From NCBI GenBank assembly GCA_029776995.1, contig JAKOTZ010000170.1, positions 1-43,167 of the forward strand: DNA of 43,167 bases, in the 5' to 3' direction. The translations under genes and the position numbers were made by a program. This document shows positions 6,616 to 10,196 of this stretch, one piece after another (position 1 is the stretch's first letter; each line of letters opens with the position of its first letter). The notes beneath the pieces are model-generated. The model ran no database searches. It saw nothing but the letters and a program-made list of their open reading frames with translations, and was not told the origin of the DNA. Source of the stretch: Candidatus Hydrogenedentota bacterium. Its GTDB lineage: Bacteria; Hydrogenedentota; Hydrogenedentia; Hydrogenedentales; CAITNO01.

Positions 6616-7295
6616 GCAGATTGTCCGCGCTGGGGCGTTCCGCCCTGTACCGATTTTACCGGCTGATGAGCCGCCATTACGGCCCTACCGGCTGGTGGCC
6701 CGGGGATACGCCCTTCGAGATTGCCGTGGGCGCCATCCTGACCCAGAATACGGCATGGCGGAATGTGGAACGGGCGATCGCGAACCTGAAACAGCTGGAC
6801 GCGCTGGAACCGCAAGCCCTGGTTGCGCTGACCGATGCCGAACTGGAAGAAGCGCTGCGTCCCTCCGGTTATTTTCGCCAGAAGGCGGAACGGGTCAGGC
6901 GTTTCACCCGCTGGCTGCTGGAGCGGCACGGCGGACGGCTGGAGTCCCTGGCGGAGCTTCCGCTGTCCCGAGCCAGGGAAGAACTGCTGGCCCTGAACGG
7001 CATAGGTCCCGAGACTGCGGACGATATTCTGCTGTACGCCTGTGGTTTTCCGGTTTTCGTTATAGACGCGTACACCCGGCGCATCCTCGCCCGCCATGGC
7101 ATGCCCGAGGCGTTGAGCATACCCTACGAGCAGTTGCGGCACTATATAGAGTCCCGGTTGGACCGCGACATCCCGCTGTTTCGGGAGTATCACGGCCTGA
7201 TCGTCTGGACCGGGAAAGATTTCTGCCGCCGCCGCGCCCGGTGCGAAGGCTGCCCCTTGGCCGAACTCCCAAAAGACCCTACTATAGGGACCTGA
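6612..7295 (+). CDS. Endonuclease III-like (HhH-GPD) DNA glycosylase lacking the usual Lys and fourth FeS Cys
   Basis: This 227-residue protein has an HhH-GPD base-excision fold: PFEIAVGAILTQNTAWRNVE, then helix-hairpin-helix LNGIGPETADDILLYACG, then catalytic Asp in FVIDAYTRRI. In endonuclease III the hairpin carries a catalytic Lys (GxGRKTA). Here that place is Glu (GPETAD), which points to a monofunctional glycosylase of the 3-methyladenine (MagIII-like) branch rather than a bifunctional lyase. The C-terminal cysteines read FCRRRARCEGCPL, only three of the usual four, so the [4Fe-4S] cluster may be absent or differently ligated. It starts by 4-nt overlap with the Nudix gene. The exact lesion repaired is unknown. 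Confidence 0.82.
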   Translation: MSRLSALGRSALYRFYRLMSRHYGPTGWWPGDTPFEIAVGAILTQNTAWRNVERAIANLKQLDALEPQALVALTDAELEEALRPSGYFRQKAERVRRFTRWLLERHGGRLESLAELPLSRAREELLALNGIGPETADDILLYACGFPVFVIDAYTRRILARHGMPEALSIPYEQLRHYIESRLDRDIPLFREYHGLIVWTGKDFCRRRARCEGCPLAELPKDPTIGT

Positions 7296-7386
7296 CCCTG
7301 TGACGCCTGTTTACCCATAACAATAAGGATTATTTCCTGGTTGGGCAGCGCAGACAACTCCAGTTTCAAGTTACCGGCGGTTCGTG

Positions 7387-8310
7387 TTAGAACGATGATG
7401 CGATTGGTCCTGTGCCGCCGAAAATGTCCGCGAAAAAGGTCATTACGGGCGGCGTGATCACGCTCTCACCAGGCGCCCCGATATTTTCGTTTACCTCCTC
7501 GTGCGTATAAACGGAGGCATCCACAACCGTAACACTCGAACCGGCGGCCTGAACGCCGGCGGCGAAATCATCGGCTATCCCCTGGCGGAACGCGTTGCCG
7601 CGCTTGGCGACGAGGAACGGCGGGATGCCTTTGCCGGCCGCCAGATGGTTGATGGGCGAAGCTGCCTCCCAAACCAGGGGCTCGTCTCCGAAGGCGTTCA
7701 AGATCATCTCGTTTCCAGGGTCGTAACGCATCTTGGCCACGATATCCAAGCCTTCGGCATCGAGTTCAGCCGTTCCCTTGATGACGGTCAGCGGCAGGCC
7801 ATGAGCCGCCAGAAAGGACTCGTCGGTACTGACCAAGGAAACCAGGTGCCCACCTGCCGAGTGACCCAGAAGCGCCATTCGCGTTGGGTCGCCACCGTAC
7901 GAAGCGATGTGGGTGTATACCCAGGCAATTGCCGCCGCCACATCCTGCACATGAATAGGATGCATGACGCGTGCCGGGTTATCCATAGCGAAAGAATCGG
8001 GCGACAGACGATAGTTGACACTCACGAAGCAATACCCCACACCGGTAAACAAAGAGGGCTTATATTGCATCTTGTTAGCCTTGTCGCCACCTTTCCACGC
8101 GCCGCCATGCACCCAGATCACGACCGGCATCGGATTAGCCGGCGCTGGGTCGGGCAGGTAAATGTCAAGGCTCTGCAGATTAGCCTCGACTCCGGGTGTC
8201 GTCGCGTAGCGGATATCCGGTATTTTGACGAACGTCGTGGGAGTCGCCGGGCATCCCGCAAGTGCCAAAGTAGCAACGGTCAGTAATCGGCCAAGCCACA
8301 GGTTTTTCAT
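7387..8310 (-). CDS. Lipoprotein alpha/beta-hydrolase (BD-FAE-like esterase)
   Basis: This 307-residue protein starts with a lipoprotein signal and lipobox (LLTVATLALAGC), so it is probably anchored to a membrane facing the periplasm or outside. The alpha/beta-hydrolase core shows the oxyanion motif VVIWVHGGAWKGGDK, the nucleophile elbow LLGHSAGGHLVSLV with catalytic Ser, and a late His (YTHEEVNENIG). This resembles the feruloyl-esterase-like/carboxylesterase (BD-FAE) family. The ribosome-binding site AAGGAAA lies before ATG 8310. It is divergent from an ECF sigma gene, and its upstream region carries the same promoter signature as the sigma gene, so it is probably part of that regulon. The substrate is unknown. 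The gap at 7296-7386 shows no feature. Confidence 0.86.
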   Translation of the reverse strand: MKNLWLGRLLTVATLALAGCPATPTTFVKIPDIRYATTPGVEANLQSLDIYLPDPAPANPMPVVIWVHGGAWKGGDKANKMQYKPSLFTGVGYCFVSVNYRLSPDSFAMDNPARVMHPIHVQDVAAAIAWVYTHIASYGGDPTRMALLGHSAGGHLVSLVSTDESFLAAHGLPLTVIKGTAELDAEGLDIVAKMRYDPGNEMILNAFGDEPLVWEAASPINHLAAGKGIPPFLVAKRGNAFRQGIADDFAAGVQAAGSSVTVVDASVYTHEEVNENIGAPGESVITPPVMTFFADIFGGTGPIASSF

Positions 8311-8396
8311 GGAGATTTCCTTTTCTACCCTTGAGCCTTCAGTCTCCGTAACTTATACGGCCTACACTCGGCCTTGTCTCACTTTTCGGGTTCATC

Positions 8397-8429
8397 GGAG
8401 TAATGGACGCGAACGGCTCCAGGGTTACA
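8397..8429 (-). promoter_or_regulatory. ECF-type promoter for the lipoprotein esterase
   Basis: The minus strand reads TGTAACC, 17 nt, CATTACTCC. The identical two-part signature occurs on the plus strand at 8453-8485, facing the sigma gene. The -35 boxes are back to back, 23 nt apart. A GTAAC/GAAC-type -35 element is characteristic of ECF sigma promoters. Confidence 0.65.
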
Positions 8430-8452
8430 CTGGTCTCGAAATCGTTCAGAGA

Positions 8453-8485
8453 TGTAACCTTTTCTGTGAATGTGAGCATTACTCC
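8453..8485 (+). promoter_or_regulatory. ECF-type autoregulatory promoter of the sigma cassette
   Basis: The plus strand reads TGTAACC, 17 nt, CATTACTCC, ending 23 nt before the sigma start codon. It matches the esterase promoter in both boxes and in spacing, which is what an autoregulated ECF sigma would require. Confidence 0.68.
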
Positions 8486-8508
8486 ATCGAAGATCTGATT
8501 ACGGTGTA

Positions 8509-9102
8509 ATGATTGATGACTGTGTGCAGAACGATGTTCATGACATGGACTTGCATGACATCGAGGGCAGCCTGCGCGGTGACGAGGCTGCCTATGCTCG
8601 ACTGGTGCGGCGGTATGAACCGGCGATTGTCCAGCAGATGGCCCATTACACGAGGGATCGAGGGGTCTTGCGCGAACTTGTCCAGGAGGTCTTCCTTGAG
8701 GCGTACCGCGGCCTGCCACGCTACCGACCCGAGGCGCCGTTGCTGCACTGGCTGCGTCGAATCGCATCACGGGTTGGGTATCGCTATTGGAAGGTTCAGC
8801 GCCGGGAACGGGATCGGAGCGTTCCGTTGGAGGAATGGCACGAGCGCATCATGGCCAGGCCTCCGGAAGTCGAAGAGCCCTCGGAGGCGGCGGAGTTGCT
8901 CTATGACCTGCTTGAGCGACTTCCGCCGAAAGACCGCGCCGTGCTGACGCTGATGTATTTCGAGGAGTGCGATGTGCGCATGATTGCCGAACGCATGGGG
9001 TGGTCGCAGACGCTGGTAAAGGTTCGCGCATTCCGCGCCCGGCAACGGCTGCGAACGATGCTTCAAGAAATCGGATATAGGAGTTCACAGGGCAATGAAT
9101 GA
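8509..9102 (+). CDS. ECF-family RNA polymerase sigma factor (cassette A)
   Basis: This 197-residue protein has sigma region 2 (AYARLVRRYEPAIVQQMAHY, then LRELVQEVFLEAYRGLPRY and LLHWLRRIASRVGYRYWK). After a short linker comes region 4, with LLERLPPKDRAVLTLMYFEE and the HTH MIAERMGWSQTLVKVRAFRA. Such factors redirect RNA polymerase to a small regulon when an anti-sigma factor is inactivated. The start is taken as ATG 8509; ATG 8545 is an alternative, and neither has a strong ribosome-binding site. The 3' end overlaps the next gene by 8 nt, so it is translationally coupled to the putative anti-sigma. Confidence 0.92.
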   Translation: MIDDCVQNDVHDMDLHDIEGSLRGDEAAYARLVRRYEPAIVQQMAHYTRDRGVLRELVQEVFLEAYRGLPRYRPEAPLLHWLRRIASRVGYRYWKVQRRERDRSVPLEEWHERIMARPPEVEEPSEAAELLYDLLERLPPKDRAVLTLMYFEECDVRMIAERMGWSQTLVKVRAFRARQRLRTMLQEIGYRSSQGNE

Positions 9103-9352
9103 CCCCTTGGATTTGGTGGACCGTTTGGCGGCGCGTGCGCGCCGGCATTCAGTAGAACCTTTATCTGTCGCAGACGACGTTATACGGCAACTCCGCAAAC
9201 CTGCGCGCAGTCCCTTGGTATGGGTGACCGCATGTGCAGTAGCGGCAACGCTGCTTGTGTTTGCGCTGGTTGGCGTTCCACGAACCGAGGCCGACCCACT
9301 CGACGCCCTCTTCCAAACTGCCGACTTCATCCGAACGGAAGGAGGCTTCTGA
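9095..9352 (+). CDS. Small single-pass membrane protein, probable anti-sigma factor
   Basis: This 85-residue protein has an about 40-residue charged N-terminal segment (DLVDRLAARARRHS..DVIRQLRKPARS), one transmembrane helix (LVWVTACAVAATLLVFALVGV) and a short outer tail. The translational overlap with the ECF sigma gene and the topology (cytosolic N-terminus, one helix) fit an anti-sigma factor that sequesters the sigma at the membrane. There is no recognisable zinc anti-sigma motif, so the assignment rests on context. An AGGAG site lies inside the end of the sigma gene. Confidence 0.65.
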   Translation: MNDPLDLVDRLAARARRHSVEPLSVADDVIRQLRKPARSPLVWVTACAVAATLLVFALVGVPRTEADPLDALFQTADFIRTEGGF

Positions 9353-9353
9353 T

Positions 9354-9815
9354 ATGAGTCAAGAGAATCTTCACGAAACACCGCTCCGTCTGTTTTCCAG
9401 GCATCGCTGGTGGCGAGAAGTGTTTCTAGGCATCACGCTGTTTGCGTGCGGCTTCCTGATGGGCGGCGTTATCGTAACGAAGTACTACATTTCCCGGACG
9501 GCAAGCGTGGCACACGCCGGCGTCAATCACCAGCAGACCATCGACCGTCTGCAGCGGATGCTTGATCTGAACGCGGAACAGACGCGGCAGATACAGACAA
9601 TCATAGCCAAGGGGCTTGACGACTTGCGGAGCATTCGACAATCGGTACGGCCCGAGATTGACGCCGTACTGGAGCGCGTTCGCACCGAGGTGTCTTCGCT
9701 CCTGAATCCACGCCAGAAACGGATCTGGGAAAGGCGCTTTGACCTGACCCGAAGACGGTGGTTCCCACCAATACCTGAGAATACCAGCGGTGAAAGGGGG
9801 GCAAGCAGCCGGTAG
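9354..9815 (+). CDS. Membrane-anchored Spy/CpxP/CnrX-like periplasmic sensor
   Basis: The track ORF begins at 9255, but ATG 9354 is preferred: it follows the anti-sigma stop by 1 nt and has GGAGG upstream. The 153-residue product has one N-terminal transmembrane helix (VFLGITLFACGFLMGGVIV), then an all-helical periplasmic domain with the Spy/CpxP/heavy-metal-sensor pattern (LDLNAEQTRQIQTIIAKGLD, then VSSLLNPRQKRIWERRF). In CnrX-type systems such a protein senses metal or envelope stress and controls the anti-sigma. No metal-binding His/Met cluster is obvious, so the signal is unknown. It completes a three-gene cassette similar to the one at 18575-20556. Confidence 0.7.
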   Translation: MSQENLHETPLRLFSRHRWWREVFLGITLFACGFLMGGVIVTKYYISRTASVAHAGVNHQQTIDRLQRMLDLNAEQTRQIQTIIAKGLDDLRSIRQSVRPEIDAVLERVRTEVSSLLNPRQKRIWERRFDLTRRRWFPPIPENTSGERGASSR

Positions 9816-9975
9816 GAAAATTGGATCTAAGTGCAACATTTTGCAAAAAGGCGAAGGCTTCTAAGGGAACTCGGCGGCCAGTGTTTTTCCTGCGTCGGTT
9901 GTTCAGCTCATAAATGATCCTCTTGAGTTTTTCAGGGGGGAATGTTTCAGTAATCGGTGAAAAAATCTTCGGCAG
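9814..9975 (-). mobile_element. Decayed C-terminal fragment of an IS30-type transposase
   Basis: A minus-strand frame without a proper start reads ETFPPEKLKRIIYELNNRRR, then KNTGRRVPLEAFAFLQNVAL. This matches the end of IS30-family transposases, whose DDE core finishes with a LNNRPRK..G..TP.EVF..VAL pattern. Only this tail is visible; neither the catalytic residues nor inverted repeats were found. It marks an old insertion at the junction between the accessory ECF/esterase block and the rimP operon. It accounts for much of the 406-nt gap at 9816-10221; the rest holds the rimP promoter and leader. Confidence 0.55.
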
Positions 9976-10088
9976 CCTGGCTGGCTGATTCATGCAAGCG
10001 GAGTCGGATGCCGTTATCTGGGAGGCCGGATAACAGCAGGCGCTGCGCTCAGTCAGAACCCGCGGCCCGCTGCGAAAAAACGCCGGGG

Positions 10089-10118
10089 TTGCTATTCCCC
10101 TTTCAGTAATGTTACAAT
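10089..10118 (+). promoter_or_regulatory. Candidate sigma70-type promoter of the rimP-nusA-infB operon
   Basis: TTGCTA and TACAAT are separated by 18 nt (four of six and five of six consensus bases). The expected transcript would start near 10125 and carry a leader of about 95 nt with two hairpins before rimP. Confidence 0.5.
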
Positions 10119-10144
10119 TATTCTCTGATGAAGTGTAGCCGCCG

Positions 10145-10196
10145 AAAAGTGGGTGACAACCCACTTTTTTTATTACCTGCCCGCTGCGGGCGGGCA
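10145..10196 (+). promoter_or_regulatory. rimP leader with terminator-like hairpin (possible attenuator)
   Basis: The first element, AAAAGTGGGT-GACA-ACCCACTTTT, is a 10-bp stem with a 4-nt loop that runs into further T residues, so it looks like an intrinsic terminator inside the leader. A second hairpin follows at 10178-10196 (TGCCCGC-TGCGG-GCGGGCA, 7 bp). A terminator-like stem just before rimP occurs in many bacteria and suggests feedback on the operon encoding NusA and IF-2. The mechanism is inferred. Confidence 0.6.

Follow-up and report, generated by a model that had tools for sequence, protein, structure and literature searches.

What should one make of an intergenic region in which the same two-part sequence occurs twice, once on each strand, between a gene for a lipoprotein esterase and a gene for a sigma factor? 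The window, by which we mean the whole 43,167-nucleotide stretch of Candidatus Hydrogenedentota DNA analysed here, contains such a region, and the first-pass annotation took it for a pair of back-to-back promoters of the extracytoplasmic function (ECF) type. Sequence and comparison with relatives make it very probable that these are indeed two divergent promoters, which the ECF sigma factor encoded at 8509–9102 would read to govern its own operon and the esterase. The features that matter for the argument are as follows:

7387–8310, minus strand: lipoprotein esterase, 307 aa (BD-FAE/alpha-beta hydrolase; lipobox LAGC, HGGAW and GHSAG motifs)
8397–8429, minus strand: predicted esterase promoter; TGTAACC -35 box at 8429–8423, N17 at 8422–8406 and CATTACTCC at 8405–8397, with the -10 as CATTA(CTCC); the motif also precedes the esterase orthologs of relatives G010 (at the operon) and G007
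8430–8452: gap separating the two -35 boxes, 23 nt, of equal length in G010
8453–8485, plus strand: predicted promoter of the sigma operon; TGTAACC -35 box at 8453–8459, N17 at 8460–8476 and CATTACTCC at 8477–8485, with the -10 as CATTA(CTCC); the N18-spaced motif is kept before sigma orthologs
8509–9102, plus strand: ECF sigma factor, 197 aa, with regions 2 and 4
9095–9352, plus strand: putative anti-sigma factor, 85 aa, with two cytoplasmic helices, one transmembrane (TM) helix and a short periplasmic helix
9354–9815, plus strand: Spy/LTXXQ/Metal_resist-like protein, 153 aa, membrane-anchored and helical; a putative periplasmic sensor

The two copies of TGTAACC-N17-CATTACTCC are, as had been claimed, identical at all 16 positions, with equal spacing on opposite strands and 23 nt between the -35 boxes. 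The accompanying claim that chance would hardly produce them was borne out: dinucleotide shuffles of the window gave a mean expected count of 0.00 for the bipartite sequence, and no non-overlapping inverted 7+9 pair arose in 40,000 Markov-1 simulations of a 198-nt intergenic region. When overlap was allowed, 55 of 20,000 simulated regions held an inverted pair, and we attribute these to self-overlapping palindromes because none was left once overlap was forbidden. The N17 spacers of the plus and minus copies are unrelated in sequence; the element is, therefore, bipartite and not a long inverted repeat. Canonical ECF promoters carry AAC in the -35 and CGT in the -10 (PMC8103513). The AAC is present here, within TGTAAC, and the CGT is absent, the -10 reading CATTA in the window and CA[CT][TC]A in relatives.

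The plus-strand genes form a recognizable cassette. The sigma factor matches Pfam regions 2 and 4 above the cut-off and TIGR02937 at 1.7e-24, and it has these two regions only, which is the criterion for an ECF (group IV) sigma factor. The overlapping 85-aa TM gene is kept beside the sigma gene in 22 of 68 genomes and is a putative anti-sigma factor; its predicted structure (mean pLDDT 78.6) has helices at residues 4–17 and 25–34 and a TM segment at 41–59, and its profile found no significant match among solved structures, CnrY chains included. For the third protein, the profile matches solved Spy chains at 4.4e-08, and CnrX is not among its PDB profile matches. The window's own copy falls below the Pfam cut-offs, while 11 of 17 orthologs match Metal_resist and LTXXQ is matched in relatives too. 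A fold search with the model of this protein (best E 3.3) was uninformative, as the protein is simple and helical. Orthologous cassettes have the same make-up, namely sigma factor, an anti-sigma of ~87 aa with one TM helix, and a membrane-anchored Spy-like protein, with TGTAAC-N18-CA[CT] upstream.

It is the comparison across relatives that gives the promoter reading its support, including the orientation of each site toward its gene. Sigma matches were found in 21 of the 60 genomes searched, and the sigma gene served to orient 32 loci, the window's own and 31 of relatives, a box being counted as near sigma if it lay up to 2.7 kb upstream on the same strand or within 400 nt on the opposite strand. 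Across these 32 loci, CA follows TGTAAC at exactly N18 in 32 of 38 boxes near sigma versus 4 of 37 elsewhere (Fisher p 6.7e-11, an optimistic value, since the loci are related and not fully independent), and no other spacing from N14 to N22 accounts for more than four boxes near sigma. The consensus of the sigma-cassette loci is TGTAAC-N18-CA[CT][TC]A; neither the spacer nor the sequence beyond the -10 is clearly conserved. Because the bases following CATTA vary among relatives, TCC lies outside the shared code; the conserved core is TGTAAC-N18-CAYTA, and the TCC common to both window copies is probably coincidence or local fine-tuning.

Whole-genome scans point the same way. In 19 sigma-bearing relatives TGTAAC-N18-CACTA occurs 26 times, and for these boxes the counts are 7 over N14–16, 11 at N17 (a figure derived from match lengths) and 14 over N19–22, which puts the off-spacing background at ~3 per spacing for N14–16 and N19–22. 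Seven family members without the sigma factor yielded one match in ~30 Mb. A control pattern read backwards gave no fewer matches in these 19 genomes (~47, vs 26 for the motif), so the argument depends on where the sites lie and how they are spaced, and raw counts do not carry it. What the sequences and their comparison show directly is the motif with its fixed spacing, its placement before cassettes and target genes, and the composition of the cassette. With the motif conserved upstream of sigma orthologs, autoregulation of the sigma factor, which the first-pass annotation had predicted, is very likely.

On the other arm, the esterase matches BD-FAE in Pfam (2.4e-29), with HGGAW and GHSAG intact. 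The annotation had named loss of the pair in relatives that keep both genes divergent as a reason to doubt the promoters, and the closest ortholog, in G010 (locus L033; sigma factor 72% identical), still has the divergent pair, again with a 23-nt gap. The operon on its minus strand runs EF-hand, EF-hand, esterase, so that the esterase, 54% identical to that of the window, comes third. The esterase ortholog of G007 is not on the contig of the sigma gene, and it has the motif at -108. Taken together, these two relatives make the esterase a very likely target of the sigma factor. A different esterase follows the motif in G047, with a sigma cassette behind it on the same strand, and other pairs (gaps 19–44 nt) face other genes, such as one for a TolC-like protein in L041. 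Regular helical phasing of the paired sites seemed to be present at gaps of 23, 34 and 44 nt, and was rejected when gaps of 19, 30, 38 and 43 nt broke the pattern.

There are other ways to read the locus. The sigma factor might regulate its own operon only, with a weak or non-functional minus copy and another promoter for the esterase; the esterase orthologs of G012 and G015 have no motif in the sequence examined, and the motif is absent from more distant esterase homologs. We consider this unlikely, given that the minus copy is no less perfect than its plus counterpart, that G010 keeps it at an equal gap, and that the G007 esterase has the motif even though it is unlinked to sigma. Alternatively, the sites could be promoters of another sigma factor, either the housekeeping one or another ECF, of which the genome encodes other candidates (19 at first look) that could read the same sequence. 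This, too, is quite improbable: the motif tracks the sigma cassette across genera and is almost missing from family members that lack it, and a sigma-70 scan found no sigma-70-like site at the paired promoters.

An inverted arrangement between divergent genes is also what one would expect of a single operator for a dimeric repressor or activator, but in many relatives a lone site stands before a sigma gene or a target, and the spacing is fixed within a site (N18) but ranges from 19 to 44 nt between paired sites, which leaves this reading very little room. It is more doubtful still that the inverted copies mark the ends of a mobile element. A same-genus genome, G001, lacks the entire block at this place, which speaks for such a reading; the copies, however, occupy the middle of it and not its termini, no transposase was seen in it, and the motif is conserved at different loci of other genera.

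The missing block deserves description in its own right:

7252–10106, no strand assigned: block missing from same-genus genome G001 (~2.8 kb); DNA alignment ends at ~7252 and restarts at ~10107

In G001 (L126), nth and rimP lie ~160 nt apart and the esterase, sigma, anti-sigma and Spy-like genes are gone; searches of that genome matched neither a sigma factor at E 1e-20 nor an esterase at E 1e-50. The block shows no evident flanking repeats. Being absent from G001, the block behaves as a unit that is gained or lost. Just beyond it, at 10140–10175 of the window, a hairpin with a T run (AAAAGTGGGTGACAACCCACTTTTTTT) lies upstream of rimP-nusA-infB and is conserved in G001; it is possibly a leader attenuator.

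How far does the regulon extend? The first-pass annotation offered the motif as a search tool for the whole of it, and in this genome the motif does not serve that purpose. Exact scans of the 3.4-Mb draft (262 contigs, 97% complete) found nothing besides the pair, and a one-mismatch scan gave 10 matches versus 14 for the control pattern, so we rejected the idea that these matches mark a wider regulon. As only the pair matches, a wider regulon is not revealed, and the regulon predicted from sequence in this 97%-complete draft is the divergon itself. The motif of the relatives does find further targets. The esterase-type genes adjoining it encode a carboxylesterase lipoprotein, a PHB-depolymerase-like lipoprotein and a BD-FAE esterase; the others encode EF-hand proteins, Spy-like membrane proteins, DUF1800 and DUF1549 proteins and a TolC-like lipoprotein (TolC and HlyD likeness was judged by eye). 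The matches at L075, L082, L084 and L093 look like chance, with no convincing gene start behind them.

Three further observations were made among these matches. On contig C9 of G048, which is not the contig of its sigma gene, a divergent motif pair (L152, 4599–4638) lies between genes for an HlyD-like membrane fusion protein and a TolC-like protein, which suggests efflux control by this sigma family. Extra Spy-like membrane proteins are encoded immediately after the motif at L072, L076, L085, L088 and L095, several of them upstream of sigma cassettes. At L091 and L092 (G044 and G032), the motif is followed by genes for secreted proteins with an N-terminal domain of ~100 aa that has no Pfam match and a C-terminal EF-hand pair.

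Several described systems invite comparison. In CnrYXH of Cupriavidus metallidurans, CnrH is the sigma factor, CnrX the periplasmic sensor and CnrY a class II anti-sigma whose two helices wrap the sigma factor (PMC7406223). As modelled, our cassette resembles it in joining an ECF sigma factor to a short one-TM anti-sigma with two cytoplasmic helices, and it likewise includes a helical protein of the Metal_resist/LTXXQ kind that is periplasmic and anchored in the membrane; some relatives also have the motif before TolC-like and HlyD-like genes. It differs in gene order (sigma-anti-sensor, not Y-X-H), in having an esterase as local target, and in that profile searches from the cassette matched neither CnrX nor CnrY. 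A response to nickel or cobalt is a further mark of the CnrYXH system, and we do not claim membership of that family.

The SigAb-AabA-AabB system of Acinetobacter baumannii (PMC12153292) is a close functional parallel: a sigma factor, a small TM anti-sigma (AabA, 107 aa) and a periplasmic third protein encoded by overlapping genes, with autoregulation and very few direct targets. AabB is described with a signal peptide, whereas the third protein here is TM-anchored, and the accessible part of the description mentions no esterase divergon. The -35 element of ECF16 (EcfF, Bradyrhizobium; PMC3420878), tGTAACc, agrees with ours, but its promoter, tGTAACc-N16-CGAA, has its proposed -10, CGAA, at N16, whereas here CA[CT][TC]A stands at N18 after TGTAAC (N17 after TGTAACC). 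The third protein is akin to the Spy/LTXXQ periplasmic chaperones by the profile match and the Pfam matches given above, and differs from them in its membrane anchor and in having its gene within a sigma operon.

The circuit that we infer would work as follows. At rest, the 85-aa membrane anti-sigma would hold the sigma factor, with the Spy-like protein anchored in the membrane and acting in the periplasm as a sensor or co-inhibitor. An envelope signal (metal, misfolding or membrane stress) may then free the sigma factor by way of the Spy-like protein. Once freed, it would act at the plus promoter on its own operon, giving positive feedback together with renewed inhibitor, and at the minus promoter on the lipoprotein esterase.

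The locus is a real, self-contained divergon, and an autoregulated ECF sigma factor with a divergent target is a conventional kind of circuit. Its ECF subgroup, with CnrYXH-like architecture, is apparently undescribed, a word that we use provisionally; a search of the open literature turned up no paper on ECF regulation in Hydrogenedentes. We lean, with some reserve, toward an undescribed ECF group that is Hydrogenedentota-wide and has a promoter code of its own, TGTAAC-N18-CAYTA, its anti-sigma being CnrY-like and its Spy-like sensor anchored in the membrane. Such a group would control esterases at the cell surface, EF-hand proteins and components of envelope efflux, and would come and go as one complete divergon that regulates itself. 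Regulation in this phylum is almost absent from the open literature, and the locus offers a promoter code that can be tested, together with candidate targets of sigma factors there; the tie between a cassette with a Spy-like sensor and esterases and EF-hand proteins suggests an envelope or metal/calcium stress circuit.
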